From a virus, in the IMG/VR virus record IMGVR_UViG_3300030106_005756, positions 1-50,819 of that record: a DNA stretch of 50,819 bases, one strand, 5' to 3'. The translations under genes were made by a program, and so were the position numbers. Below are positions 13,096-27,436 of the stretch, piece after piece. Each line of letters starts with the position of its first letter. Position 1 is the stretch's first letter. The notes below the pieces were generated by a model that saw only the letters and a list, made by a program, of their open reading frames with translations, did not search any database and was not told the origin of the DNA.

Positions 13096-14778
13096 TTAAT
13101 CTCCAATCATTTTGATTAATTCATTAGAAGCATCGACACAGGTATCTATCTTACCTGAAAATAATGTAAATATATTATCTCCATGTTTTTCAACCAAAGT
13201 AGGTCTGGCGTCATCGTGCTCCCTATCTTTTAAAACTGCTCTAATTGTAAACATAGAACCTATGTGTTCTAAATTAGAAAAATCCTCAAAAAATCTTTCA
13301 CCAGTCTCAATAAATTTATCGATATTAGTTAAATCGGGTTGATAAATTATACCTTTGTTAATGTAATCCGATAACTTGTTATTCTTAATTATTGGTGCTG
13401 TTCCTATATTTGTTTCATGTATGGCGTGAACCACATTACCTAGAACGTGATAATCAGTAGTCCCATAGGGGTCGAGACACATGAAAGGGCCATCCATTAC
13501 AACGATGCTTTTATTTTTATATCTATCTGATAATTTTACGACAGGTTTTTCACAGACCTCAAATTGATAATTTATTTTTTTGTTTAAATACTGATTTATA
13601 TTAGAATAAGTTGCAAAAACAATTACATCGTATGAGTTGAAATTCTTTTTATCTGACTCATGATTTATTTTTATGTTTACATTATTTGCAAATAGTTTTT
13701 TCTTCACAGAATGTCGTAATACTCGGGAATCGAATAACTCCTCTTCAACTTTGACAGTCAAATCAGTATTCTTAAGTGAATCGACAATTTTATAATTTAG
13801 TCTATGTTCATCTAAAAACTCTAAATATTCGTCTGAGCTAATCAAGGAGCCCTCAGATGCAATACAATAATAATGTTCAATACCACCATTCAGAACAGAC
13901 TGTTCATATTTACGTTTAAATGTTTTTAATCCCTTATTACACTCAAGTGCTGTATCAGAACTTCTTGGATAATGATAACCCTTATGTAATCTGTATTGAT
14001 TTATATTTGAGGCACACATCATAATGTCACTCTGTTTTTCGTGAATCTCCACATCATATCCGTTATTCGCCAAAGATACTGCGGCAGTGCTACCAAAAAT
14101 ACCCCCACCAACGACCAGAGCTTTTGGATACATAACTTTCCTAACCTCTTCTGATAAATAAGTTGCGTTCATGGTAACATCTTTATTGAAACTTTTAGTG
14201 GTATAATCTTCAAAAACAGATATCAACATTTTTTTCAATGGATTATCGTTTATATTGGATACCTCAACATCATCAATGCTATGAAAAGTCTTTTCACTTG
14301 GTGTATAATCGAAATTTCCAATCTCCCCACCGTTTAGTTTTATAGTAAAAGAGTAATCATTAGTTTTAATTATTTCATCGACTAATATTTTTTTGTTTCT
14401 AACCCATAGATAAAAATGATGATAGGCTAGTCTGTCTATATAGTTGGTAGTATCTGTTTTACCCCATCTAAAATTAGAAACGTTATAAAATTCATTTCTC
14501 CAAATAAAAACATCGTCGACGTAAAGCTTAACATCATTATCAAATGCGGTATTATATAAATACTCAGCTGATTTGTAATTCAAACTAAGTGGTTTTTCAC
14601 AAAAGACATTCTTTTTTTGTTCTAACCAATACTCGACTTGTTCAAAATGTAAATCATTGGGTGTGGATATTACTATCCAATCAGAATTTTCAGGTTTTAC
14701 GATATCGACATCATTTTTTATGGAGTCGAATATTTTAGTCCCCCATTTTCCTTTTCCGATTATCGATACTTTAGCCAT
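13096..14778 (-). CDS. Fusion: Gfo/Idh/MocA-like NAD domain plus FAD-dependent oxidoreductase (DAO-type)
   Basis: 560 residues from ATG at 14778, which overlaps the upstream stop; longer versions of the frame encode no conserved sequence. The N-terminal part (about 1-215) has VSIIGKGKWGTKI (Rossmann), WIVISTPNDLHFEQV and FCEKPLSL, the EKP signature of Gfo/Idh/MocA sugar oxidoreductases. From about 218, ALVVGGGIFGSTAAVSLANNG is a textbook GxGxxG FAD-binding motif, and the rest follows the DAO/amine-oxidase layout. Both cofactor sites look intact, so the protein may oxidise a sugar at two positions or channel an intermediate. I know of no standard enzyme with this order. Confidence 0.8.
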   Translation of the reverse strand: MAKVSIIGKGKWGTKIFDSIKNDVDIVKPENSDWIVISTPNDLHFEQVEYWLEQKKNVFCEKPLSLNYKSAEYLYNTAFDNDVKLYVDDVFIWRNEFYNVSNFRWGKTDTTNYIDRLAYHHFYLWVRNKKILVDEIIKTNDYSFTIKLNGGEIGNFDYTPSEKTFHSIDDVEVSNINDNPLKKMLISVFEDYTTKSFNKDVTMNATYLSEEVRKVMYPKALVVGGGIFGSTAAVSLANNGYDVEIHEKQSDIMMCASNINQYRLHKGYHYPRSSDTALECNKGLKTFKRKYEQSVLNGGIEHYYCIASEGSLISSDEYLEFLDEHRLNYKIVDSLKNTDLTVKVEEELFDSRVLRHSVKKKLFANNVNIKINHESDKKNFNSYDVIVFATYSNINQYLNKKINYQFEVCEKPVVKLSDRYKNKSIVVMDGPFMCLDPYGTTDYHVLGNVVHAIHETNIGTAPIIKNNKLSDYINKGIIYQPDLTNIDKFIETGERFFEDFSNLEHIGSMFTIRAVLKDREHDDARPTLVEKHGDNIFTLFSGKIDTCVDASNELIKMIGD

Positions 14779-15508
14779 AAAGATATTTATATGTCTTTTC
14801 CATCCAATAAGGAACCGACTTTTGCTTTTCAGGTAGACCATTATAATGAGATACATATCCTAATTTTGTATGTAACATATCATCACCCAAAATTTCTTTT
14901 TTCAACATACAACTCATATTAAATTCATAGGGTAAAAGCTTTTTATCAACACCGTGTTTTTTCAACATGTAGTTCAATGGTGTTTGGTCTGTTCCAACTC
15001 CGTAGGTTTTCTGAATATATTGTAAGGTATCTTTATGTTCAAAATAAAACTTCCTCATTTTATCAAAGAATGGTCTGTGTGTCTTATTAACGATTTGGAA
15101 TCCACTATTACCATACTCCCAAAAATTAAACTTATCCTCGGTAAAGATGGCGTTATGATAATGTTCTATACTTCTGATAATCCAATCATAACTGGCATCA
15201 TCATGAACTAAACAATATTTATTGTCCGTATAATCAAATATATTTGGACAAGTTGGATGAACTATTGTGTCGGCATCGACTAATAAAATCTGACCGTAAT
15301 CTATCTTATTTGAATCCAACATATCGAATAAATAATACCTCTGCCAGATTATATGCATATCTTCAACAGGTAACACAGGTTCTTCCATTACAATTAAATC
15401 ACACTCATGTCTATCACAAAATCTTTTCCAAGAATCTATCGAATATTGATACTCTTTTTTAATATCACCGTCTTTTTTATAATCTATCATAAAAACTATA
15501 TTACGCAT
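14771..15508 (-). CDS. Glycosyltransferase, GT-A with DAD motif, paralogue of next gene's N-terminus
   Basis: 245 residues from ATG at 15508, which overlaps the upstream TAA. LLVDADTIVH supplies a DxD metal-binding motif; GNSGFQIVNK, GTDQTPLNYML and a C-terminal SHYNGLPE follow. The same series (LVDSSF, NSGFIVFN, GTEQTPMNYWL, CFNGLPKDQ) occurs in residues 1-250 of the gene upstream, so the two are tandem duplicates. Similar to GT8-type or glycogenin-like transferases. Sugar specificity unknown. Confidence 0.75.
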   Translation of the reverse strand: MRNIVFMIDYKKDGDIKKEYQYSIDSWKRFCDRHECDLIVMEEPVLPVEDMHIIWQRYYLFDMLDSNKIDYGQILLVDADTIVHPTCPNIFDYTDNKYCLVHDDASYDWIIRSIEHYHNAIFTEDKFNFWEYGNSGFQIVNKTHRPFFDKMRKFYFEHKDTLQYIQKTYGVGTDQTPLNYMLKKHGVDKKLLPYEFNMSCMLKKEILGDDMLHTKLGYVSHYNGLPEKQKSVPYWMEKTYKYLYG

Positions 15509-16868
15509 TACAAATACATCCTTCCATGTCAAAAAACTTAGTACCAGATGCTGATATTAGGTCATTTGGTTTCTCCCCTATAAATTTAATATCCCTCAAC
15601 TCTCCACTAAGTAATTTATCATCAATAGCCTTTTTTACTTCACCAGGTGGTAAACCATAGTCATCAAATATGAATGTAACATCTTCCCATAATTTTAACG
15701 AGTTTTCTATATCACTCATGACCTGATGGTATTCATGACCGGCGTCGATAAAAACCACATCAACATCTTTGGGTAAAAAATCTTTCCAATCACTATGGTA
15801 TAAATCCATTTTGACCAACTCAACGTTATCCCTATCTTTATTATTATTTCTAGCTTGTTCTAAGTTCCAATCATCTATCTCAACGGCGTAGACTTTTTTA
15901 AAAATATGACTTAATAATCTAGTAGATTGTCCTTGAGATGCACCTATCTCAACCACAGTCTTATCTTTGAATTTATCCCCAAATAATTCTAAAACATCTT
16001 TTTTAAACTTTCTAGAGGTCGTATATTTAGCAGTGTCTTTATGTAACATCTCATTCAATATTTTATCGTGTGGATTTATGACATAATTATCCTTAACAAG
16101 TTCCCAAGTCTGTCCCATCAGTTGTGGTCTTTGGTCTTTGGGTAAGCCGTTGAAACACCAGTTATATCCATATTTTATAAAAAATGGTGTGGTATCTCCC
16201 TCTATCTGCCAGTTATGTCCGAGTAAGTCCCTTCTATGCATATGGGTTAATTTATAGGCAAGTGGTAATTCTAAATTTACATCTATTTTGTTAATCTGTA
16301 ACCAATAATTCATTGGTGTCTGTTCGGTTCCTTTATTAACAATTTTATCTTGTAACTCCACAAACGTATCCACGTTATCGTAATATAATTCTTTGAATGA
16401 TTTGAAAAACTCTTTATGTTTTTGATTAAATACAATAAAACCTGAATTAACATACTTGGATTGGTCTAATTCAAAATTATTGAAAAAAGGTTTGTATCCT
16501 TGAATGCTTTCATGAATCCATCTCATGTTATCCTTATCGTGCCAAGCTGTAAATCTATGGTCTGTTAAATCAAAGAAGTTTGGAGCATCCCATTTATACA
16601 TAAAACTACTATCGACAAGAGCTATTTGGTCATACTCGATACCTCTTCGTTCTAACTCTTCGAAAACGAATATTGCCTTCTGCCAATTAATTCTAAATTT
16701 AAACAAATCATCCTCAATTGGTTCTGAAAACTCAACAAATTCACAATCATATCTTTCACAAAAATGTTTCCAAGTATTTTTAGAATAATCAAAGTATTCA
16801 TAATTACCGTATTTTTCAGTTAACTGTGGATTTTTTACACCAACCCACCATATTACATTTTTTTTCAT
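15501..16868 (-). CDS. Glycosyltransferase fused to an S-adenosylmethionine methyltransferase
   Basis: 455 residues. Residues about 1-280 match the DAD-type glycosyltransferase next door, but the metal motif reads VDSS instead of VDAD, so this copy may have altered metal use or be non-catalytic. Residues about 295-455 form a class I methyltransferase: VVEIGASQGQSTRLL (SAM loop), YAVEIDDWN (acidic ribose contact), KMDLYH and VVFIDAGHEYHQV, as in Methyltransf_24 proteins that methylate sugars or small metabolites. The fusion suggests transfer plus O-methylation of the same glycan. It overlaps the PfkB gene upstream by 4 bp. Confidence 0.75.
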   Translation of the reverse strand: MKKNVIWWVGVKNPQLTEKYGNYEYFDYSKNTWKHFCERYDCEFVEFSEPIEDDLFKFRINWQKAIFVFEELERRGIEYDQIALVDSSFMYKWDAPNFFDLTDHRFTAWHDKDNMRWIHESIQGYKPFFNNFELDQSKYVNSGFIVFNQKHKEFFKSFKELYYDNVDTFVELQDKIVNKGTEQTPMNYWLQINKIDVNLELPLAYKLTHMHRRDLLGHNWQIEGDTTPFFIKYGYNWCFNGLPKDQRPQLMGQTWELVKDNYVINPHDKILNEMLHKDTAKYTTSRKFKKDVLELFGDKFKDKTVVEIGASQGQSTRLLSHIFKKVYAVEIDDWNLEQARNNNKDRDNVELVKMDLYHSDWKDFLPKDVDVVFIDAGHEYHQVMSDIENSLKLWEDVTFIFDDYGLPPGEVKKAIDDKLLSGELRDIKFIGEKPNDLISASGTKFFDMEGCICNA

Positions 16869-17629
16869 ACGGTGGAAACCCCATGTTTTTGTACGACTAT
16901 TTTAGTACAGTCTTGTGCGAATTTTATAGCCTTGATAATATCTCTACTTCTAATATATTCCGTGGTTAATCCTGCTAAAAAAGTATCTCCGGCACCTGAT
17001 ATATCTTTCACTGGTACATCATCGGTGGGGTATCTGTCACCTTTGAATAAACACCCCTCTCTACCTCTCGTAATAATTGTTTTATCGATGATAGGATTAT
17101 TTTCGAAAAAATGTTTATTGTTCTCATACTCTAAGTCGTTTATTTTTAAAAAATCAACGTCTTTAATCCAATCGCCTAATTTTTTCTTCGTGTCTACAAA
17201 AACATTGTTGTTATTTTCACATATCCATTGTATATCATCCTCGTGTAAAAAACCTTTGTCATAATCAGATATAATCACAGCATCGAAATCTCTTTTACCG
17301 TTCCAAGGTATGTGGCATTCATTGTTTTGTATCGTCGATAATAAAATATTTTCAATCCTATCACAATAATCATGTTCATCAACTCTCAGTACAAGTTGAT
17401 TGGATTTATCATCAACATATCTAACTTTTCTAATACTATTTGGATTCGTTATTGTCGAAATATTCACCCCTAAAGCCTCAACATTATTAGAAACATTTCT
17501 AGCCATACCGTCGTTTGTTTTTGTGACAGTAGGATTGAATACTGGCACAGGTGCCTCTGGTGTTAATCTATTGACTTTACCGTAGACAAAAACATCCTTA
17601 CAACTATCACCGACCACTAATATTCTCAC
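16865..17629 (-). CDS. PfkB-family sugar kinase, HldE/RfaE-like
   Basis: 254 residues, shorter than the 310-residue HldE kinase domain. LVVGDSCKDVFVYGKVNRLTPEAPVPVF matches the RfaE N-terminus (GDxxxDxYxxGxxxRxSPEAPVPV). VIISDYDKGFL, FVDTKK and ISGAGDTFLAGL (PfkB signature 2 with the catalytic Asp) follow. It phosphorylates a sugar phosphate, most likely a heptose-7-phosphate at C1 by similarity. The start is GTG at 17629 after GGAG, overlapping the cupin stop (GTGA). No ADP-transferase domain is fused. Confidence 0.8.
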   Translation of the reverse strand: MRILVVGDSCKDVFVYGKVNRLTPEAPVPVFNPTVTKTNDGMARNVSNNVEALGVNISTITNPNSIRKVRYVDDKSNQLVLRVDEHDYCDRIENILLSTIQNNECHIPWNGKRDFDAVIISDYDKGFLHEDDIQWICENNNNVFVDTKKKLGDWIKDVDFLKINDLEYENNKHFFENNPIIDKTIITRGREGCLFKGDRYPTDDVPVKDISGAGDTFLAGLTTEYIRSRDIIKAIKFAQDCTKIVVQKHGVSTV

Positions 17630-18075
17630 TTTTTATCTCCTAATCCGTTTTCTCTTTCAAATTTTTCAATGCTATCCCAAACCTCTACCTGACTATCACC
17701 TGGTAGTACTCTGTAGGAATCTGAGTCCTCATGGTGTGTTGAAACTTCAAATATTCTACCATCAGTTATAGCTTCTAACTGATGAGGTTGACCAGGATAT
17801 TGTCTAACGACCCAACCAGGTTTTAACTTTATCGTTGTTGGATAGGCGTTCTCGGTATCTATAAACGTATAATTAAACTCTCCTTCTTCCACCCACCAAG
17901 TTTCATCTTTGTTCATGTGATAATGCATTGAGAACTTACATCCGGCATTGAATACGAGTATTTTGCCACAATAGAGTTCGTTATTCTCAATGATTATTTC
18001 TTTACCCCAACCTTTGGGGATGTGACATGCCTCTTCCATGTAGACATCTGTTTTTATCTCACCGTGTTGTAACAT
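17626..18075 (-). CDS. Cupin-domain protein, possible sugar isomerase or epimerase
   Basis: 149 residues. A single cupin: GWGKEIIIENN, then KFSMHYHMNKDETWWVEEGEF (cupin motif 1 with HxH and Glu) and PGQPHQLEAI (motif 2 His). This resembles the C-terminal domain of type II mannose-6-phosphate isomerase and small cupins next to heptose or LPS genes. The AAGGAG ribosome binding site is good. The gene is coupled to the HldE-like kinase, which suggests both act on the same phosphorylated sugar. Confidence 0.7.
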   Translation of the reverse strand: MLQHGEIKTDVYMEEACHIPKGWGKEIIIENNELYCGKILVFNAGCKFSMHYHMNKDETWWVEEGEFNYTFIDTENAYPTTIKLKPGWVVRQYPGQPHQLEAITDGRIFEVSTHHEDSDSYRVLPGDSQVEVWDSIEKFERENGLGDKK

Positions 18076-18971
18076 TATTTTGTCTCCTTAAATCCAAAAG
18101 GACCTGATTTACTAAATATATTGTTTGATAGTCTATTTTCACTATCGATAAAACCTTTGGTTCGAAGTTCATCCACCAATGGTTGGTCACAGCTAAGATT
18201 CGATGGAGAGTTCGCAGGAAAGTCTTTTGGTCGTTCGTTGATAGGAATCAAATGAAGACGTTGATTGATTTGTTCACCACGAGAGGTTCTGATACCACAG
18301 CATGTTCTTAAGGCATATTTACCTTTGGTGGCGATAATGTCCCAATCAGGTATATCGTAATGTTTTGTTATATTGTGTGGTTCATCTTCCTTACCAGTTT
18401 CTCCCTCGAACTCCCAAGGACTGATGTTAGGCCTCATCAATTCAAAAAATAATGAGCGTGAAAATATCGACCAAGTACCTGAAGACCTAAAACTCCCCTC
18501 TTTCTTAAGTTTAATAAGTTCCCAATCATTCATACCCATGACTGTGGTAAAACCATATTCTACCTTTTTAGGTGGGTTGACAACACGACTAGAGTGCTCA
18601 GGATCGTTGGTCAAAGCAGCTCTACCAATTTTTGGGTCATTCTTTATCTTATTGGTCAAATAATAATAAATCTCTTCATTGAATCCAAACAAAAAAGAGT
18701 CCTCGGTACACCATTGAATGTGGTCAAACTCGACGTTCATCAGATAATCCCTAATCGGTGTTGACCAATTCTTCGGGCCTCCCACCTGTTTACCCAATGA
18801 GACATACTCAATGTTAGTGGGAAAATCGTAATTAGGTATGTCGTAACCTAATATTGTTACCTTTTTGTCAGGTCGAAACTTATTAAAACAATGCACCCAT
18901 ATCGGTAAACACCTCATGTAATCATTCGATGTAAAAACGTACAATGGTGGGTCATATTTTTTAATTACCAA
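18075..18971 (-). CDS. Putative glycosyltransferase-like protein; TTG start
   Basis: About 298 residues. The start I prefer is TTG at 18971, because GGGAG lies exactly 5 nt upstream and the frame then begins VIKKYDPPLYVFTSNDY. Features: a Rossmann-like N-terminal half, FDHIQWCTEDSFLFG (acidic metal-binding-like segment), SSGTWSIFSRSLF and a C-terminal NRLSN-type tail. Not assigned to a known family; a glycosyltransferase role comes from context and the GT-A-like layout. Confidence 0.5.
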   Translation of the reverse strand: MVIKKYDPPLYVFTSNDYMRCLPIWVHCFNKFRPDKKVTILGYDIPNYDFPTNIEYVSLGKQVGGPKNWSTPIRDYLMNVEFDHIQWCTEDSFLFGFNEEIYYYLTNKIKNDPKIGRAALTNDPEHSSRVVNPPKKVEYGFTTVMGMNDWELIKLKKEGSFRSSGTWSIFSRSLFFELMRPNISPWEFEGETGKEDEPHNITKHYDIPDWDIIATKGKYALRTCCGIRTSRGEQINQRLHLIPINERPKDFPANSPSNLSCDQPLVDELRTKGFIDSENRLSNNIFSKSGPFGFKETK

Positions 18972-19345
18972 GATATCTCCCAATCTTTGAATTCAGCGGC
19001 TAAACAATCCGTTTTATAATCTTTTCTACCGCCGAATCTTTCTTGTATTTTGTTTTTCGCCGTATTTCTGATACCATTCAATCCATGGGTAAGTTGTAAG
19101 TTCTCACCAGCATTGATACCTTTACGGGCTTCGGATTCATTATGCCAAATGTGTAGATTCATCTGTGAGGTAACGATTACAGCCCTAATTAATTCACCGT
19201 CCAACCCCTCTAACTCCAAATCATGTATAATGTCTTTTATCTCTTGAGCATATTCTTCCTTATGTTCAGGTATGAAAACTTCTTTCAACTGAACGATGGA
19301 TAATCTATCTATCAGTTCACTTACTGTTGGTAAATACTTTCTCAT
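18965..19345 (-). CDS. Small conserved-looking protein of glycan cluster (126 aa)
   Basis: The start at 19345 is set by GGAGAGAGG upstream and by the ATGA overlap with the Gmd-like stop. It begins MRKYLPTVSELIDRLSIVQ and is almost entirely helical and charged, with SQMNLHIWHNESEARK in the middle. No cofactor motif. Proteins with this N-terminal pattern occur beside sugar-nucleotide genes in other phages and bacteria, as far as I recall, without a known activity. Confidence 0.6.
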   Translation of the reverse strand: MRKYLPTVSELIDRLSIVQLKEVFIPEHKEEYAQEIKDIIHDLELEGLDGELIRAVIVTSQMNLHIWHNESEARKGINAGENLQLTHGLNGIRNTAKNKIQERFGGRKDYKTDCLAAEFKDWEISW

Positions 19346-20310
19346 AAAACCTCTCTCCAATAATCTAATAAATCATCACAAATATGGGTCAAATCCTTTT
19401 CTGGTTTCCAACCAAAATGTTCTCTAAACTTATCACTACTAGGAATTTGTAAAGTTATATCCGTTGGTCTGACCCTTTTTTTATCTAACAATTTGGTTAA
19501 CGCATCTGATATCTTGGATTTGGATATCAACATATCGAGGGCTTCCCCAACCGTACAGGTGTAATCACCACCTATGTTGTAAACCTCACCATACCTATTA
19601 CTTTCGGAACATAACCAATAAGCTTTTATGGCATCCTCTATATGATTATAAGTCCTAACAGAATCTAAATTACCATGTCTAATCTGACAATCGTTTTTTA
19701 TCAACTTTTCATTTTGAACAATCTGATATGCGAATGATGAAAGGGCAAATTGTTTACCTCTTCTGGCACCCTCATGACTAAACATACGAGTCGTAATTAT
19801 CTTCATACCATATGCTTTATAATAGTATTGTGACATCAAATCATGACCTACCTTTGATATTGAATATGGATTAGCAGGTCTGATGGGATTGTCCTCGGTG
19901 ATGGGAATCTCATCTTCGTTTGGATTACCATAAACCTCGGATGAAGATATACTCACTATTGTTGGATTGTATCTAGAATCCTTTATTGATTCGAATAAAT
20001 GGGTGGTGCCTATTACATTCGTTTGTAAGGTGATGACCGGTATTTTAAAACTAACCTCAGGAAAACTCTGAGCGGCAAAATGAAATACTTTGTTTGGTTT
20101 AGATATCTCAATGGCTCTTTGTACCGACATACCATCTATCAAATCACAGTCGATAAACTGAAACCTTTTATCATCAATATGGTCTAAGTTTTTTGTATCT
20201 TCCATCCATCGTTTGGTAGCGTATATTCTAACATCTATTTCGTTATCCAAAATATAGTCAATCATGTGACTACCAACAAAACCTGTACCACCAGTTATCA
20301 ATATGTTCAT
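19342..20310 (-). CDS. GDP-mannose 4,6-dehydratase-like SDR
   Basis: 322 residues (Gmd is usually 345-375). GGTGFVGSHM (7-16) binds NADP. FHFAAQSFPEVSF, VSISSSEVYGN, PANPYSISK (catalytic YxxxK) and RMFSHEGARRGKQF, corresponding to the Gmd NHESPRRG segment, follow in order. The reaction is GDP-mannose to GDP-4-keto-6-deoxymannose, and the same family also acts on GDP-heptose. It belongs to the operon containing the ColD-like enzyme, whose natural substrate is this product. Confidence 0.8.
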   Translation of the reverse strand: MNILITGGTGFVGSHMIDYILDNEIDVRIYATKRWMEDTKNLDHIDDKRFQFIDCDLIDGMSVQRAIEISKPNKVFHFAAQSFPEVSFKIPVITLQTNVIGTTHLFESIKDSRYNPTIVSISSSEVYGNPNEDEIPITEDNPIRPANPYSISKVGHDLMSQYYYKAYGMKIITTRMFSHEGARRGKQFALSSFAYQIVQNEKLIKNDCQIRHGNLDSVRTYNHIEDAIKAYWLCSESNRYGEVYNIGGDYTCTVGEALDMLISKSKISDALTKLLDKKRVRPTDITLQIPSSDKFREHFGWKPEKDLTHICDDLLDYWREVL

Positions 20311-20321
20311 TTATAATCCTT

Positions 20322-22004
20322 TTAAATTAAAACTTTATTTATTATATCTTTTTTATCAACCATCCAGCTACGGGTTTTTAAATTATCAACCGTGTCAACC
20401 ATCGAACCTAACTCAATACTATGAACTTGTTTATCAAGTTTCCATAATCTTTTTTGAATTACCCTACCAGCCATTCCAACAGCTGGTAACACTAGGTCAA
20501 CTTCTTCAACATAATCCAAAACTTTTGGCCACCATTCATCTATATGATAATAAGCGTCTTTTGATGGTGTCGCGACATGATAATCTACTTTACCAACAAG
20601 TCTTTCAATCGATGATTTTTTAATCGAACCGATAAAAAGTTTTTTCTTCGGTCTGATAAAATTATCCATAAAATCTTTAAAAATTTGTTGTTCGTGTACA
20701 ATTATATAAGTTAACATCACATGTGAATAAAATGTAAATTCTTCATGTCTATCGAAATTTTTTTGTATAAAACCAGCTAATTCATTATATATTTGTGGTG
20801 GATGATGAACTAGTTCCCTTCCATTATATGTTGGTTCGTTGAACATCACTCCACGAATATAATTATCATCTAAAATCTCAAAAGAGTCTTTTAATTCCTG
20901 TTGTAATTCGGGTGAGTATTTATGTAGAAGTTCCCTTTTACCTTTCATAATTTCAAAATCACCATCTCCGAAACGGCTGTAAAATACCTTTTTATCGTTT
21001 GTAAGTTTATTGTACAAATGATTCAAAGTTTCTTGAATATTTTTTGTTTCCATTTTAAATTCCTCTTCAATTTCGTATCCAGCGTTTTCACACCTTCTAC
21101 ATATTATATCACCTTCAATCGTATCATCTGTCATACGGTCTGTGATATATTTCATGGCACTACCATTATGTAAACTATCATAGTCATCCTCTAAAAGATT
21201 TCCTAACTTAGATTCCAAACCATAGTCCATACAACACAATTGTATATCACCATTAGGTATGACAACATTACTGGTCAAACTGTTACTTTTACAAATTATC
21301 TTACCGGCTTTATAACCAACCCCACCCTCATAATTCGTCATAGACGGTGCCCTTTTTCTGACCTCTTTATCATTCAGATTTGATGCTCTTGATATTGCTT
21401 TGAATTCAAATGGTATTTTATCTAATGGGAATACATCAAGTATCTCCTTACTCAGAAAACCATTTTTATCCATAGTCATAAACCGAATGTGGGTTCCTAA
21501 TACTAGATTATTTTTTTGAGCCTGAACAATTAAATACTTAAGAATTTTCTTATACTTAGTTGTTATTTTAACTGGCATGACACCACCCTCATCGGGTAGA
21601 TGTATCGCTAAAGGGTTCTCTTGGTCGTAAGGTGAGAAAGGTCTAGTGGGATGTTTACAGATATCAATTAATAAATCAACATCAGATACATTTGCACCAA
21701 CCAAAGTAGTATACACAGATACCGTGTGTCCTTTATCATGTGCATATTTTATCATCCTACCACAATCTTTATTCAAAAAAGGTTCGGTATAACCAGAGAA
21801 ATCTATCCTTGTTGTCAAAGGAACTTTATCGATTATTTTTTTAAAATTATTAAAAGATAAATTTCTTATGAGTTCATCCTTGGGATATAGATTGTAAGTC
21901 TTTGATAGTTTATCCTGTGGACAAACAATACAGGCGACCGCACATCCCTTATAAGCTATATTTACCGTAACCTCAAGTTGTGTTTGATGACGAGGTGGCC
22001 ACAT
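20322..22004 (-). CDS. Radical SAM/SPASM-like enzyme fused to a GT-D glycosyltransferase domain
   Basis: 560 residues. N-terminal part (about 1-320): CAVACIVC (Cys21, 25, 28) is the canonical CX3CX2C radical-SAM cluster motif, followed by TRIDFSGYTEPFLN, the GGE-like SAM region. Near 240-320 are more cysteines (a QLCCMDYG and ICRRC set), typical of a SPASM-type auxiliary cluster. C-terminal part (about 335-560): YSRFGDGDFEIMKG, corresponding to the R-FGDGE motif of the GT-D fold, and LVLPAVGMAGRVIQKRLW. A membrane segment is absent. The two halves are in one frame with no stop, so radical modification and sugar transfer may be coupled. Confidence 0.75.
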   Translation of the reverse strand: MWPPRHQTQLEVTVNIAYKGCAVACIVCPQDKLSKTYNLYPKDELIRNLSFNNFKKIIDKVPLTTRIDFSGYTEPFLNKDCGRMIKYAHDKGHTVSVYTTLVGANVSDVDLLIDICKHPTRPFSPYDQENPLAIHLPDEGGVMPVKITTKYKKILKYLIVQAQKNNLVLGTHIRFMTMDKNGFLSKEILDVFPLDKIPFEFKAISRASNLNDKEVRKRAPSMTNYEGGVGYKAGKIICKSNSLTSNVVIPNGDIQLCCMDYGLESKLGNLLEDDYDSLHNGSAMKYITDRMTDDTIEGDIICRRCENAGYEIEEEFKMETKNIQETLNHLYNKLTNDKKVFYSRFGDGDFEIMKGKRELLHKYSPELQQELKDSFEILDDNYIRGVMFNEPTYNGRELVHHPPQIYNELAGFIQKNFDRHEEFTFYSHVMLTYIIVHEQQIFKDFMDNFIRPKKKLFIGSIKKSSIERLVGKVDYHVATPSKDAYYHIDEWWPKVLDYVEEVDLVLPAVGMAGRVIQKRLWKLDKQVHSIELGSMVDTVDNLKTRSWMVDKKDIINKVLI

Positions 22005-22951
22005 TACATATTCTCTTTAATCCACTCAACAGTCTCTTTGATACCATCCTCGAACGATATTGTTGGTTCATATCCAATAACCTCTTTTGCTTTTGATGTG
22101 TCCAACGCTCTATATTGTATCGTAACGGGTTTGGTTTCATCATACTCTGGTTTAATATTATGGTCAGCATGTTTTAAAATTAGGTCTACACTTTCACCAA
22201 TCGTGACCAAATTACCTGACGCAATATTGATTGGGTCACATACCGCATGTTTTTCTACCACGTCTAAACAAGCTCTTGCCATATCAACAGAGTGAGTGAA
22301 GTCCCTAACAACATCAGGATTACCCCAAACCACATAAGGTGTTTGTTTTTCAAGAGCTCTACGGATGAGTGCTGGTAAAACATGACCAGTCTCATCTGTG
22401 AAGTCACCTTGTATTCCGTATATATTAGCAGGTCTAACGATAGCTATTTTCATCATTTCGTTTCTTTGATAGAATTGAGCTAATATTTCCGTATATCGTT
22501 TCATCCAGCCAACACCAAAGTAAGTCGTATAAGGATCACCCGACATCATCTCATCTTCCTTAATAGGGTAATCAGCTGGTGGGTAAGTTGTAGCACTACT
22601 AACAAAAAAGAATCTTTCCACTCCAGCTCTATAAGACTGTTCCATCAAAGTAGAATTCATAATTAAATTTGGTGTCACGTGCTGTAAAGGATCATGTGCC
22701 ATGACTCCAGCACCAGATGTATTCGCAGAACATACAAATACTATGTCCATACCATCGACACATTTTTTAACGTCATCAATATTCATAAAGTCTGCTTTAA
22801 CTTTTTCAACATCACCTACCCAACTCGGAACCTCTCTACCTCGATAACTAGCCCTAACTATTGCACCTTGTTCATGTAACATCTTTGCGACCTGTGAACC
22901 AACTAATCCACCGGCACCTGTTACTAATACCTTTTTATTTTTATAAAACAC
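22004..22951 (-). CDS. NAD-dependent epimerase/dehydratase (WcaG-like), no canonical YxxxK
   Basis: 315 residues. VTGAGGLVGSQV (10-21) is the NAD loop; VSSATTYPPADYP and VRPANIYGIQG are standard extended-SDR features. The expected catalytic tyrosine position (four residues before the Lys of GWMKRYTE) is not Tyr. A GTG start at 22951 follows AAGGAGTACAATA. It lies between the second epimerase and the radical-SAM fusion in the dideoxysugar-like operon; reduction or epimerisation of the 4-keto intermediate is the natural guess. Confidence 0.75.
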   Translation of the reverse strand: MFYKNKKVLVTGAGGLVGSQVAKMLHEQGAIVRASYRGREVPSWVGDVEKVKADFMNIDDVKKCVDGMDIVFVCSANTSGAGVMAHDPLQHVTPNLIMNSTLMEQSYRAGVERFFFVSSATTYPPADYPIKEDEMMSGDPYTTYFGVGWMKRYTEILAQFYQRNEMMKIAIVRPANIYGIQGDFTDETGHVLPALIRRALEKQTPYVVWGNPDVVRDFTHSVDMARACLDVVEKHAVCDPINIASGNLVTIGESVDLILKHADHNIKPEYDETKPVTIQYRALDTSKAKEVIGYEPTISFEDGIKETVEWIKENM

Positions 22952-23846
22952 TATTGTACTCCTTATACCATTGTATTGTTTTTACTATACCATTTTCTAA
23001 ACTCGTCTGTGGAGTGAAACCAAAACTCTCAGCTCTTTCGGTGCTCATTAGTCTTTTGGAATCACCCATAGGTTTTGTTTCATCCCACTCAATATCTAAT
23101 TGAAAATATGAAGCGATGATATCAGCCACCTCTTTGATTGTAACACCATCACCACTACCTAAGTTGACTGGTTCTGTTACTTGATTTTCAACCATGTGAA
23201 TCATACCCCTTGCGACATCATCGGTGTAAATCAAATCTCTGATTGGTGAACCATCACCCCAAACTTCTAAAACATCATTCTCCATTGCTTTTTTAATCAA
23301 AGATGGAACAACCATAGACCATTTACCAAAGTTGTCATTAGGCCCATAGACATTGGCGGGTCGGACTATCGAACACTTATTCCAATTATTTTGTTTGACA
23401 TAAGCCTCAACATTCATCTCACCTATTCTCTTCGCCCATCCAGCGAACCAATCGTTTTCAGATGGAAATGTTTTCCATACATCATCCTCTTCGAAAACCT
23501 CTGCTGGATGATAAACCCCAACCGAACTCGTATAAAGAAACCAATCAACATCAGCATTGAAAGCAGCTTCAACCATGTTGGCATTGAACTGAATCATAGG
23601 TACACTAAATGATGCAGGTGATTCCATACATCTCTGTGGAGAACCTTTGATACCAGCCAGATGAAATATAATATCTTGACCATCACATATTTCTTTACAA
23701 ACATTTCTATCTCTGAGGTCATAGTTTGGTAAATCTGCAACCAAAATATTATTTGGTGATTTGGTCTGAAGAATATCAACAAGACTTCTACCAATCATTC
23801 CTTTACCACCTGTTACTAATATATTTTTATTCTTGAAATCAATCAT
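22941..23846 (-). CDS. NAD-dependent epimerase/dehydratase (WcaG-like), second copy
   Basis: 301 residues. VTGGKGMIGRSL (11-22), FHLAGIKGSP, YTSSVGVYHPAE, NDWFAGWAKRIGEM and SIVRPANVYGPND follow the extended-SDR pattern, with RDLIYTDDVARGM near the end. Like its neighbour it has Phe-Ala where YxxxK predicts Tyr, a feature I recall from a subgroup of GDP-fucose-synthase-like proteins. It overlaps the ColD-like gene by a few bases. Confidence 0.75.
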   Translation of the reverse strand: MIDFKNKNILVTGGKGMIGRSLVDILQTKSPNNILVADLPNYDLRDRNVCKEICDGQDIIFHLAGIKGSPQRCMESPASFSVPMIQFNANMVEAAFNADVDWFLYTSSVGVYHPAEVFEEDDVWKTFPSENDWFAGWAKRIGEMNVEAYVKQNNWNKCSIVRPANVYGPNDNFGKWSMVVPSLIKKAMENDVLEVWGDGSPIRDLIYTDDVARGMIHMVENQVTEPVNLGSGDGVTIKEVADIIASYFQLDIEWDETKPMGDSKRLMSTERAESFGFTPQTSLENGIVKTIQWYKEYNSVL

Positions 23847-25015
23847 AAGTCATTTAACCCTTCACATAAATCGATTATATCTTCAACTTTTAACTCAGGA
23901 TGATTACCGATATATAAACCGAAATCATGTATGTAATCAACATTTAATAAATCGTGTTTCACAACATCATAACCTTCTAAGTACGGTTGTCTAGCTTGAT
24001 TTCCGCCACCAGCGGTTCCAACCCTAAATTCAACATCATTTAATTGTAGAAAATCACAAACATCATCGAATTTTTGTTTATCAGGTTTGCTTAATATTAA
24101 AGGTAATGAAAAATTACTATTACCGTTTCTATCAAAGTCCACATAATATTTATCACTATCTAAATTATCCACCCATGTGTTGAAATTTATACTACGTCTT
24201 TCTTTATTATAATCTAACCTTTTCAATTGTGATAGACCAAGTATGGCATTCATCTCTTGATTTCTCATATTATAACCAGGCACGGCAAATGTGAACAGAG
24301 GATTCAAATCAGGATATTTAATTCTATACTCTTCTTTTAACTCATGAGACGCTTCTCTAGTCATACCATGAGACCTGAAAAGTCTAGCTAAATCATATAT
24401 TTTTGTATCATTAGTACAAATCATACCACCTTCTATTGTCGTTATGTGATGACCAAAATAAAAAGAAAAATTGGACACATCTCCGAAAGTGCCAACCTTC
24501 TTACCTTTATGAGTAGCACCATGTGATTCACAACAATCTTCCATCAAAAACAAATCGTTTTCTTTGCAGAAATCAACCAACTCATCAGTTATCGCGTTAA
24601 AACCTAGGACATGAACCAGACAGACACCGACAGTCCTATCCGTAACCGCCTTCTTGATATTTTCTAGTGTGATTGACATATTCTTTTTATCTATATCAAC
24701 AAACACAGGTGTAAATCCTAAGTTGACTAGAGGTGAAACATCCGAAACCCAACCCAACGGTGACACTATAACTTCACCTAGACCATGTGTTTCTTTCATT
24801 ATAGATGTCATGATGTAATTTGCTGAAGCACCTGAGTTAACAAATACAGAATAATTAACACCTAACCATTCAGACCAAGCATTTTCAAATTCCTTAACCT
24901 TTACACCTTGTGTAAACCTTTGATTAGGTGTATTGATAAAATCAGTCCAAACCTTTTTATCATCATCGGTTATACTATCGTTGATTAGTTGCCATTTAAA
25001 TTTATTTTTCTGCAT
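23843..25015 (-). CDS. ColD-like DegT-family enzyme with His replacing the PLP lysine
   Basis: 390 residues from ATG at 25015, chosen because GGGGAG lies 7 nt upstream; ColD is 388 residues. DegT/DnrJ/EryC1 features: NSGASANYIM (cofactor-phosphate region), EDCCESHGA (Asp that pairs with the pyridine N) and SFYFGHHITTIEGGM, where aminotransferases have Lys but this protein has His (about residue 189). ColD (GDP-4-keto-6-deoxymannose 3-dehydratase) and the E1 enzyme of ascarylose synthesis share this Lys-to-His change, so a 3-dehydratase removing the C3 hydroxyl is favoured over an aminotransferase. Confidence 0.85.
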   Translation of the reverse strand: MQKNKFKWQLINDSITDDDKKVWTDFINTPNQRFTQGVKVKEFENAWSEWLGVNYSVFVNSGASANYIMTSIMKETHGLGEVIVSPLGWVSDVSPLVNLGFTPVFVDIDKKNMSITLENIKKAVTDRTVGVCLVHVLGFNAITDELVDFCKENDLFLMEDCCESHGATHKGKKVGTFGDVSNFSFYFGHHITTIEGGMICTNDTKIYDLARLFRSHGMTREASHELKEEYRIKYPDLNPLFTFAVPGYNMRNQEMNAILGLSQLKRLDYNKERRSINFNTWVDNLDSDKYYVDFDRNGNSNFSLPLILSKPDKQKFDDVCDFLQLNDVEFRVGTAGGGNQARQPYLEGYDVVKHDLLNVDYIHDFGLYIGNHPELKVEDIIDLCEGLNDL

Positions 25016-25532
25016 AATAATCTCCCCATTCAATCAAAACAGTTGACCCATTATGATAATAAGCATCTTGAAATGCAGAAAATATTTGTTCAGGTTCTTT
25101 CAACTCAACCACAACGGTATCAGTCAACATGTTTTTTATTGACTCGGTAAAATCTTGTGTGTGTTGAGAACCACCATCAAGTGGTTTTTTTGCACCGACC
25201 GCGACCCTAGTGATAACTCTTGGTACTAACTGACTCTTCGTCATTTCTCTCATGGTGTCTATGTGATTAACCAATTGATTTATTGATAACATCATGAAGT
25301 TAAACCTAGGATAAATTGAGATTGGAATAAAACCCTCTAAAGATAAACCAGCACTCATACCCATCTGTAGTTCTTCCATCACAGGTAACTCTATAAGTTT
25401 ATCTTTTGGTACATCGGATAAAGTGCCAGATATTGCGTGACCACTAAAGGCGGTTGCTTGACCTAAAAATATTGTATTATCTTTCTCACCAAGCCATTTC
25501 ATTGACTTGATTAACTCTTCTTTATATTTCAT
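25002..25532 (-). CDS. ThDP-enzyme E1-beta-like subunit (pyrimidine-binding domain only)
   Basis: 176 residues from ATG at 25532 (GAGG upstream). It holds a Pyr domain: LPVMEELQMGMSAGLSLEGFIP carries the catalytic Glu that activates ThDP, then SIYPRFNFMMLSINQLVNHID. It is about half the length of a PDH E1-beta (about 325) because the C-terminal transketolase domain is absent. It directly follows the E1-alpha-like gene, forming the two halves of a heteromeric ThDP enzyme. Confidence 0.8.
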   Translation of the reverse strand: MKYKEELIKSMKWLGEKDNTIFLGQATAFSGHAISGTLSDVPKDKLIELPVMEELQMGMSAGLSLEGFIPISIYPRFNFMMLSINQLVNHIDTMREMTKSQLVPRVITRVAVGAKKPLDGGSQHTQDFTESIKNMLTDTVVVELKEPEQIFSAFQDAYYHNGSTVLIEWGDYYAEK

Positions 25533-25540
25533 TACGACCT

Positions 25541-26173
25541 CTAAAAGTTGACCCAAGCACCAGTTCCATGGTGTGGGTATCCGTTTTCATATTTGTAATA
25601 AATGATATCCTCGGGTATATCTTGTTTAACACCCCAAGCGGCATCCGTGGGTGTATGAACACTAAGGTTATTATCCTCAACTATAAACTCTAACGGTAAA
25701 TTAAAGTTTCTAGAGTATTTATAGGCCTCATGAAATACACCTGTTTCAAAAGTCATGTCCCCTATGAAACACCAAACTTTTTCATCTGATTTTTTTCTTT
25801 TCAATCCCATGGCTACACCCAAAGCAATAGGTATAATACCACCAACAATCGCTGACGTGTATATTTTAGTTTTATTACTACTTGTTGCCATACTTCTACC
25901 CTCAACGATACTTTGTTCTAACTCATCTTTATCAAAACCATGTAATAGAGCGTGGTAATGATTTCTCCAAGCTGAAAATACCCAATCATTAGGATTGACA
26001 TATTGGAATATTTCAATGAGTTGGTCTTCATTATCTTTCGATAAATGTATTGGTGCTGGTATCTCACCGTCTTCATACTTTTGTTTTATGTTGGTTTCAA
26101 AAGATATAAGTTCTTCTTTTGTTATCTTGACTTCTTTTTGTTTTTTTAATCTAGTTGGAATTTGTAACATCAT
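25541..26173 (-). CDS. ThDP-enzyme E1-alpha-like subunit
   Basis: About 211 residues from ATG-ATG at 26173, just after AAGGG; the TGA of the RmlC-like gene overlaps it. Longer starts would run deep into that gene. SAWRNHYHALLHG, IVGGIIPIALGVAMGLKRK, CFIGDMTFETGVFHEAYKYSRNFNLPLEFIVEDNNLSVHTPT reproduce the E1-alpha ThDP-binding fold (GDG...NN metal motif, here GDM...NN). It is shorter than PDH E1-alpha (320-360). Expected chemistry is transfer of an active aldehyde from a 2-oxoacid. Confidence 0.8.
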   Translation of the reverse strand: MMLQIPTRLKKQKEVKITKEELISFETNIKQKYEDGEIPAPIHLSKDNEDQLIEIFQYVNPNDWVFSAWRNHYHALLHGFDKDELEQSIVEGRSMATSSNKTKIYTSAIVGGIIPIALGVAMGLKRKKSDEKVWCFIGDMTFETGVFHEAYKYSRNFNLPLEFIVEDNNLSVHTPTDAAWGVKQDIPEDIIYYKYENGYPHHGTGAWVNF

Positions 26174-26661
26174 TTGTCCCTTTCTGATAGTATAGGGTTT
26201 TTTATTGGCCAATTTATATTCAATCTTGGGTCGTCCCATTTCAATGAAAATTGTTCGTCGACATCAGCATATTCACCATCATATGACCACTTATACATAA
26301 ATATAGAGTAATTACTCAAAACACAAAAAGAATTTCCAAAGCCAGGTGGTAACAAAACCATCTTTTTGTTTTTATCATTTAGTATAATCCAATCCCATTG
26401 TAAGTAAGTTTTTGAGTTTTTTCTATTATCGACAACTACAAAATATAGGTCACCATACAAACACGTAACTAACTTCCAAGATTTATCATCACCATGTATA
26501 CCTCGGATAACATTCTTTCTAGATGTAGAAATCTTATCATGATTGAAATCTATTTTTATAGGGTATTCATCTTTCTTATAAATCGTCCAAAGTTCACCTC
26601 TGTAATCTTCATAAGCTTCTGGTTGGAAAACTCTTATCTCATCAAATATTTTTTTATTCAT
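26170..26661 (-). CDS. dTDP-4-dehydrorhamnose 3,5-epimerase-like (RmlC cupin)
   Basis: About 164 residues; the ATG at 26661 is preferred to the in-frame TTG two codons earlier. YRGELWTIY, NVIRGIHGDD (His matching RmlC His62) and LVTCLYGDLYFVVVD are RmlC-like, as are LLPPGFGNSFCVLS and a C-terminal WPIKNPILSERDK. The second catalytic His (AHGF in RmlC) reads GNSF, as in an RmlC-related subgroup, so activity may differ. It leads the ThDP/ColD operon and may epimerise the keto-sugar. Confidence 0.8.
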   Translation of the reverse strand: MNKKIFDEIRVFQPEAYEDYRGELWTIYKKDEYPIKIDFNHDKISTSRKNVIRGIHGDDKSWKLVTCLYGDLYFVVVDNRKNSKTYLQWDWIILNDKNKKMVLLPPGFGNSFCVLSNYSIFMYKWSYDGEYADVDEQFSLKWDDPRLNINWPIKNPILSERDK

Positions 26662-27436
26662 TATCAAACCATTGTTTTAAATTGTTAAAGTCTTCATCAA
26701 ATCTTCTTTTACCCTCTACGAAATCTGTATTGGGATTTTCAAACTCATTGGGGTTGTGATAATATTTAGGTGGTATTGGTGACGCAGTCGGATAACCACC
26801 AGCACCATCATCTGGCAAACCATGTAACTTATATTTTCTATCTTTATACTGATACTCGATTATTCCTTTACCTCTCTGTAAATGAATCATATCAAGTTTA
26901 GGTTTCAAAGGTTCTAAATTCAAAGCCTTACCTAAGTCCGATATATAACCATCCGTCCCTCGATTACCTGACACCCTACCGGTTACATCATGCCATTTAC
27001 GATTAATACCAACAAATGTTGTCGACCCTTTCCAACTTTCATTTATACCCGATAGTCCTATCCAACAAGGTTTTTCTTTAGTTGGTTCAACAACCTTTAT
27101 TACTTCATCATCCCAACCCTTGGTCAAACAAATAATATCATCATTCATGATTAACAAACAATCACCGGTAAAAAGATTTCCAACCATGTTTTGATATTGT
27201 TCTAACTCCTCATATCCATATCTTTTTTCGGAAACACAGTATGATATATTGGCGTCATCCACTTGACTCATTAGATATATTTTTTCTAATCCGTTTAAAG
27301 TTTCATCATCATCAGAATCTAATGCGATTATATATTCAACATTTTTATTATCATTTGCTTTATGAATGAATGATGATAACGAGTAAATCAATTCATGAGA
27401 CCTTTTTCTAGTCATCCACATTACGGTTATTTTCAT
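26654..27436 (-). CDS. Family 2-like glycosyltransferase
   Basis: 260 residues. VMWMTRKRSHELIYSL opens a GT-A domain; ALDSDDDETL holds the acidic nucleotide site and LLIMNDDIICLTKGWDD the DxD-type metal site. GGYPTASPIPPKYY near the end is unusual. It is joined to its upstream neighbour by an ATGA overlap. Sugar unknown. Confidence 0.75.
   Translation of the reverse strand: MKITVMWMTRKRSHELIYSLSSFIHKANDNKNVEYIIALDSDDDETLNGLEKIYLMSQVDDANISYCVSEKRYGYEELEQYQNMVGNLFTGDCLLIMNDDIICLTKGWDDEVIKVVEPTKEKPCWIGLSGINESWKGSTTFVGINRKWHDVTGRVSGNRGTDGYISDLGKALNLEPLKPKLDMIHLQRGKGIIEYQYKDRKYKLHGLPDDGAGGYPTASPIPPKYYHNPNEFENPNTDFVEGKRRFDEDFNNLKQWFDNE

Follow-up and report, generated by a model that had tools for sequence, protein, structure and literature searches.

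The GDP-3,6-dideoxyheptoses of Campylobacter jejuni HS:5 are made by a 4,6-dehydratase, a pyridoxal phosphate (PLP)-dependent C3-dehydratase, a C5-epimerase and a C4-reductase (PMC10440746; PMC10680097). A cassette of nucleotide-sugar genes in the IMG/VR virus record IMGVR_UViG_3300030106_005756, the whole 50,819-base stretch of which is referred to here as the window, is best read by analogy as a Campylobacter-type 3,6-dideoxyheptose pathway that would be ended by yersiniose-type branching instead of C4 reduction. Homologues of the 4,6-dehydratase, the C3-dehydratase and the RmlC-like epimerase of the C. jejuni HS:5/HS:11 pathway are all present in the phage cassette. However, the C. jejuni pathway has a C4-reductase and no thiamine diphosphate (ThDP) enzyme, whereas the phage cassette shows the reverse and has no canonical reductase. 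Yersiniose A synthesis likewise consists of 4,6-dehydration and 3-deoxygenation followed by ThDP-dependent addition of a two-carbon unit at C4, but it involves CDP-4-keto-3,6-dideoxyglucose, an RfbH-type dehydratase and the single-chain YerE, followed by ketoreduction, while the phage has GDP-type enzymes and a two-chain E1.

The ThDP families known to branch keto sugars are YerE-like or E1-type (alphaKADH2), with split transketolases as proposals (PMC12247030; PMC4753412; PMC10338323). In vitro demonstrations of branching exist for YerE and KbDH; for aldgamycin the evidence comes from knock-out and feeding (reviewed in PMC12247030). The alphaKADH2 enzymes (AviB1/AviB2, Pau11/Pau12 and KbDH-alpha/beta) resemble the window enzyme in being E1-alpha/E1-beta pairs with a ThDP motif and adjoining deoxysugar genes; the known ones serve Streptomyces-type antibiotics, however, and the pair in the window is much shorter, with an E1-beta that has no C-terminal domain.

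Among cyanophages, the lipopolysaccharide (LPS) clusters of S-SM2 and P-TIM68 (PMC3037559) contain a fused E1-alpha/beta ('transketolase central region', phrog_34187), a PfkB kinase and a cupin, but no ColD near E1. The ColD loci of S-CAM7 and ACG-2014f share Gmd, a short-chain dehydrogenase/reductase (SDR) and a ColD with the active-site His; in contrast to the window, they belong to another ColD clade, their C4-reductase motif is intact and a ThDP enzyme is almost never present. A separate E1 pair occurs in an uncultured 735-kb phage. ColD is not recorded as an E1 neighbour in S-SM2, in P-TIM68 or in the 735-kb phage, the record of which is unannotated. A reading made from the letters of the window before any database search (the sequence-only reading) knew of no phage described with this gene set; a search of 50,697 phage records bears this out, as the full set was not found in them, but the set is common in uncultivated viral contigs.

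Genes and proposed chemistry of the cassette

The cassette probably specifies a GDP-activated, C4-branched 3-deoxy sugar, most likely a 3,6-dideoxyheptose, for a surface or virion glycan, a reading that we hold with moderate confidence from the sequence comparisons below. All seven genes named in the sequence-only reading are real and form a single minus-strand chain (19342-26667) with overlapping or abutting ends, although a 560-residue gene inside the chain had been overlooked. The features are as follows.

26170..26667, minus strand: RmlC-like cupin epimerase (PF00908, E 2.6e-40), nearest to the Campylobacter GDP-4-keto-heptose 3,5-epimerases (MlghB/DdahB type)
25541..26239, minus strand: short E1-alpha (PP domain) of a ThDP enzyme (PF00676, E 2.5e-14)
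25002..25556, minus strand: short E1-beta (Pyr domain) (PF02779, E 2.4e-6)
23843..25033, minus strand: ColD-like PLP-dependent C3-dehydratase (PF01041, E 7e-70)
22941..23846, minus strand: extended SDR 2 (sdr2), catalytic Tyr absent (PF01370)
22004..22951, minus strand: extended SDR 1 (sdr1), YxxxK not intact (PF01370)
20322..22004, minus strand: radical-SAM/SPASM-like and GT-D glycosyltransferase fusion, 560 residues (PF13186 and PF08759)
19342..20310, minus strand: Gmd-family 4,6-dehydratase (PF16363, E 3.5e-70)
16865..17629, minus strand: PfkB-family kinase, HldE domain-I-like (heptose-7-phosphate kinase-like; TIGR02198, E 5.9e-36, under the cut-off)

Judged from relatives and sequence, the true starts of three genes are likely to be internal, at about 26173 for E1-alpha, 25532 for E1-beta and 25015 for ColD.

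In the proposed pathway, the Gmd-like enzyme would convert GDP-D-glycero-D-manno-heptose to a GDP-6-deoxy-4-keto-heptose, from which the ColD-like PLP enzyme would next remove the 3-hydroxyl. The RmlC-like epimerase would adjust C5; if its step preceded that of ColD, it would act on C3 instead. The E1-alpha/beta pair would then decarboxylate a 2-keto acid, probably pyruvate, and transfer the resulting acyl unit of two carbons to the ketone at C4. The product would be a nine-carbon 4-C-acetyl-3,6-dideoxyheptose, with branching replacing the final C4 reduction. The substrate, the donor, the order of the steps, the stereochemistry, the product and any part played by the two SDRs are inferred. The sugar might serve, for example, to alter host LPS against superinfection or to glycosylate the virion. 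In related phages, an exchanged ThDP enzyme would vary the branch.

The best PDB match of the ColD-like protein is ColD/WbdK (2gms, 180 bits), and the His noted by the sequence-only reading at the position of the PLP-binding Lys is borne out by its alignment with ColD His188 and by its presence in all full-length phage relatives checked. The segment FSFYFGHHITTIEGG of this protein is conserved in relatives. On these alignments the enzyme can be classed as ColD-type, having the DegT fold with His replacing the PLP-binding Lys.

The E1-alpha chain carries a GDM...EDNN ThDP/Mg motif in which Asp161 and Asn190 are invariant among homologues; His94 is also kept, and Glu61 and His132 of E1-beta are invariant. 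We take these residues to have the catalytic and cofactor roles that they have in E1 of pyruvate dehydrogenase (PDH) generally. Structure prediction, which had been proposed as a check on the pair, gave AlphaFold models with a predicted local distance difference test score (pLDDT) of 86.7 for E1-alpha and 91.7 for E1-beta, and the top Foldseek matches were human PDH E1-alpha for the former and PDH E1-beta for the latter. The pair is E1-type and not YerE-like, since TPP_enzyme_N, M and C do not occur in one chain. It has the ThDP motif and catalytic Glu and His of the alphaKADH2 type, but not a full-length E1-beta.

The sequence-only reading also listed two WcaG-like SDRs. The SDR genes are present, but the YxxxK tyrosine is missing from both. 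None of the 86 aligned sdr2 homologues has it, the motif being Ala/Pro-x-Trp-x-Lys-Arg, with Ala in the window protein; in the window sdr1, Val replaces the Tyr, and of 82 homologues almost all have a disrupted motif, distant members being the clearest exceptions. The Gmd-like protein has an intact SSE...YxxxK, and the Fcl-like SDR of the S-CAM7/ACG-2014f ColD clade retains YxxxK (76 aligned sequences), which a reduction of C4 would require. The canonical C4-reductase of the C. jejuni pathway, an SDR with YxxxK, is therefore not found in the window cassette. Such a loss of the catalytic Tyr would be expected if branching consumed C4.

Linkage of ColD and ThDP enzymes in viral relatives

A scan with E1-alpha returned 165 related viral stretches, of which 80 were kept; gene calls at these loci are those of a simple open-reading-frame reader, with BLAST used to name the neighbours. 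The order rmlC-E1a-E1b-ColD-sdr2-...-gmd recurs in dozens of viral contigs, far beyond chance. One group of 20-odd E1 loci has the order rmlC, E1a, E1b, ColD, sdr2, (small SDR), sdr1, gmd, pfkB. A second phage group (L040-L086) has rmlC, E1a, sdr2, another SDR and E1b, mostly without ColD, and carries a protein (cluster c6) that is about half identical to the bacterial relative of 6vo6 described below; this group possibly makes a branched heptose that keeps the 3-hydroxyl.

For the reverse test, the 80 best viral loci of the window ColD clade were read regardless of E1. They were collected with a ColD alignment, since the window ColD alone as query had retrieved three viral loci only. The control consisted of 80 loci of the S-CAM7/ACG-2014f ColD clade; a Lys-type DegT was discarded as control after yielding one locus. 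In the window clade, 74/80 loci have a ThDP carboligase gene no more than 8 kb away, compared with 6/80 of the control clade (Fisher p 2e-30), and among loci of at least 15 kb in 54/54 compared with 2/39 (Fisher p 6e-24), the loci being related by descent and not independent, so that these p-values overstate the linkage. When the ColD proteins were clustered at 80% identity, 30 of the 35 representatives had a ThDP gene.

The ThDP gene, which usually adjoins ColD directly, is of four types: E1 pairs of a short and of a longer form, a three-domain protein like YerE/acetolactate synthase, and a split transketolase. The families in this slot are those known or proposed as keto-sugar branchers. On the ColD tree, a quick tree with some long branches, the ThDP type switches many times: for the long E1 pair, starred branches force at least eight changes, and ColDs that are nearly identical accompany different ThDP types. 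Retention of the cassette while the branch-adding enzyme is swapped for unrelated ones suggests that the branch matters to the viruses.

The core of the sequence-only reading, a phage-encoded conversion of a 4-keto sugar by C3 deoxygenation and ThDP-dependent two-carbon branching, stands as the best-supported interpretation, and the ThDP linkage, the repeated swaps and the lack of a canonical C4-reductase strengthen it considerably. The broader view of a modular system for C4-branched 3,6-dideoxyheptoses in phages of aquatic bacteria, in which the ThDP carboligase is exchanged, the 4-keto-3-deoxy core is kept and the side branch is the variable part of a surface or virion glycan, is put forward tentatively, as somewhat less likely than not.

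The locus L126 has a three-domain YerE-like protein next to ColD, with a PanB-like ketopantoate hydroxymethyltransferase gene directly upstream of this decarboxylase and ColD (L126:5216-7998). A PanB-like gene directly adjoins the YerE-like match in 5/5 ColD-clade loci (L126, L133, L134, L196 and L197), the matches in L133 and L134 being partial only. The PanB family makes hydroxymethylated 2-keto acids. ErwE, a relative of YerE, favours 4-hydroxy-2-oxo acids as donors (PMC12247030). The adjacency suggests that some phages make their own unusual 2-keto acid donors.

A B12-binding radical-SAM protein of about 510 residues (L187:5365-6900; also in L111, L114, L117, L176, L189 and L190) is a repeated neighbour of E1, ColD or transketolase genes, both in phages and in bacterial contigs, of which some are SAR11-labelled; it possibly C-methylates a sugar.

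Sugar frame and rival explanations

The best PDB match of the Gmd-like protein is the GDP-D-glycero-D-manno-heptose 4,6-dehydratase 7us5 (207 bits, compared with 104 bits for the GDP-mannose 4,6-dehydratase 1rpn), and the best matches of the RmlC-like protein are GDP-heptose 3,5-epimerases (about 169 bits, compared with 92 bits for dTDP RmlC). A search for the same genes in bacterial clusters, which the sequence-only reading had proposed, found the phage gene order in a SAR116-labelled bacterial contig, followed by HddC and HddA. Other bacterial contigs with the E1 pair carry GmhA, GmhB, HddA, HddC or a protein nearest to 6vo6 (333 bits), which we take to be the C. jejuni GDP-heptose C4-dehydrogenase Cj1427. 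Among bacterial genomes with an E1 gene, 18/18 carry HddA-like kinases, mostly on the E1 contig, but the matches are below the family cut-off, the loci were picked partly for visible heptose genes and weaker GHMP-kinase matches are also present in 11/14 control genomes. The bacteria-labelled contigs are often single-cell or metagenome assemblies and their labels may be wrong. HddA-like genes are also present in a few viral relatives. Because Gmd and RmlC are nearest to heptose enzymes and the bacterial cassettes adjoin GDP-heptose supply genes, a GDP-heptose frame appears considerably likelier than a GDP-mannose frame.

The active-site residues of the window epimerase (MlghB numbering) are Ser56, His67, Lys74, Asn121, Phe123, Phe132, Tyr134 and Asp173. 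In MlghB, the Ile/His combination at positions 56 and 123 has been proposed to recognise heptose, with His123 contacting heptose O7 (PMC7949155). The SAR116 epimerase that adjoins HddA likewise has Phe123, and Ser56 is near-universal in RmlC-like relatives. Phe123 was considered as proof of a hexose substrate and dropped, since the identical Phe occurs in a cassette beside HddA/HddC; as a heptose marker in the window epimerase, residue 123 appears ambiguous.

Several observations weigh against a branched dideoxyheptose. The window epimerase has Phe at position 123, as does hexose RmlC, where MlghB has His. Homologues of HddA, HddC, GmhA and GmhB are absent from the 50.8-kb window, which is a genome fragment, and the neighbouring PfkB kinase resembles ADP-heptose rather than GDP-heptose metabolism. 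In the second phage group, E1 and RmlC occur in the absence of ColD, and C3 deoxygenation is therefore not obligatory for E1. The window E1-beta is missing the C-terminal domain that long two-subunit enzymes have, and the split transketolases might instead serve sedoheptulose supply.

In a rival explanation, the same chemistry would take place on a hexose: GDP-4-keto-3,6-dideoxymannose would be formed from GDP-mannose, and branching at its C4 would give a GDP form of yersiniose. ColD acts on GDP-4-keto-6-deoxymannose (PMC10440746). The hexose-like Ser56/Phe123 of the epimerase and the absence of heptose-supply genes from the window are consistent with this route. In addition, GDP-mannose is widely available in bacteria. 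However, the bit scores of both Gmd and RmlC are about twofold higher against heptose enzymes, Ser56 is common to nearly all relatives, including those beside HddA/HddC, and the bacterial clusters are linked with GDP-heptose genes. We consider the hexose route unlikely, and GDP-4-keto-3,6-dideoxymannose, the sugar put forward by the sequence-only reading, is probably wrong, given the closeness of Gmd and RmlC to GDP-heptose enzymes and the heptose supply genes of the bacterial cassettes. That reading had also offered, as an alternative, a 6-deoxyheptose pathway in which the ThDP pair has some other task; this alternative was half right. The corresponding alternative here, a plain 3,6-dideoxyheptose with separate ThDP enzymes that would function, for example, in sedoheptulose supply or 2-keto acid processing, has a known precedent in C. 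jejuni and could accommodate the split transketolases of some bacterial and viral loci. It is nevertheless improbable, as neither the E1 nor the YerE-like enzymes are transketolases, a transketolase pair and an E1 pair occur together in several bacterial loci, the ThDP gene is mostly right next to ColD, and the cassette keeps no Tyr-intact SDR that could act as the C4-reductase.

The fold matches to PDH E1-alpha and E1-beta could also indicate an energy or carbon-metabolism gene, part of a pyruvate or acetoin dehydrogenase. The window E1-beta, however, has 184 residues compared with about 325 in the full-length protein and comprises the Pyr domain only, lacking the C-terminal transketolase/E2-binding domain, and E1-alpha lacks its C-terminal third; a role in a dehydrogenase complex is therefore unlikely, and the pair was rejected as part of one. 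Neither E2 nor E3 genes were found among the Pfam-annotated cluster genes, and the surroundings consist entirely of nucleotide-sugar genes, leaving this explanation very little probability. Filler DNA without function seems equally far-fetched: Sullivan et al. left 'stuffer DNA' open for cyanophage LPS clusters (PMC3037559), but the window genes are open reading frames, their catalytic residues are invariant at 35-90% identity, gene order is conserved and functional analogues have been repeatedly substituted. The branched 3,6-dideoxyheptose remains the preferred reading.

Significance and genomic setting

In 2010 filler DNA was still under consideration for the large 'LPS' clusters in marine T4-like phages, and their role has been an open question at least since then (PMC3037559). 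For such clusters the cassette offers a defined pathway that lends itself to assay, and it predicts a new class of sugar. A search of open-licence papers for literature joining phage, branched sugar and heptose or thiamine found nothing on point, and C4-branched 3,6-dideoxyheptoses are, to our knowledge, a sugar class not previously described. The repeated ThDP swaps at a fixed step are evidence for selection on branching chemistry, perhaps on the identity of the branch. Known natural enzymes that form tertiary alcohols on sugars are few (PMC12247030), and the swappable ThDP enzymes are candidate biocatalysts for them. The occurrence of the cassette in SAR116-labelled and of its parts in SAR11-labelled genomes would tie it to the surface glycans of abundant ocean bacteria.

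The phage origin supposed by the sequence-only reading is confirmed by T4-like replication genes at approximately 35.7-46.8 kb of the window (PolB, clamp loader, sliding clamp, DnaB-like helicase and ribonucleotide reductase). Among isolated phages, the best identity of the window PolB is 45.6%, with Microcystis phage Mel-JY01. Nucleotide-sugar, glycosyltransferase and methyltransferase genes fill much of 4.4-34.5 kb.

The radical-SAM/GT-D fusion (20322-22004) also lies between sdr1 and gmd in L007, has homologues in only 2/80 E1 loci (L007 and L030) and gave no PHROG match. A 131-residue protein (18965-19360) without a Pfam or PHROG match has about 70% identity across very diverse phage sugar clusters, which is high conservation for a protein of this kind, and is present in 59/80 ColD loci. 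The PfkB kinase is found in 48/80 viral ColD loci and often neighbours gmd in relatives; in the window, this kinase (phrog_8133) and a cupin (16865-18075) match genes of a seven-gene LPS set common to P-SSM2, S-SM2 and S-SSM7. A further gene (13096-14856) encodes an unusual 586-residue fusion, in which a GFO_IDH_MocA match is followed by an FAD/NAD-binding (DAO-like) part.

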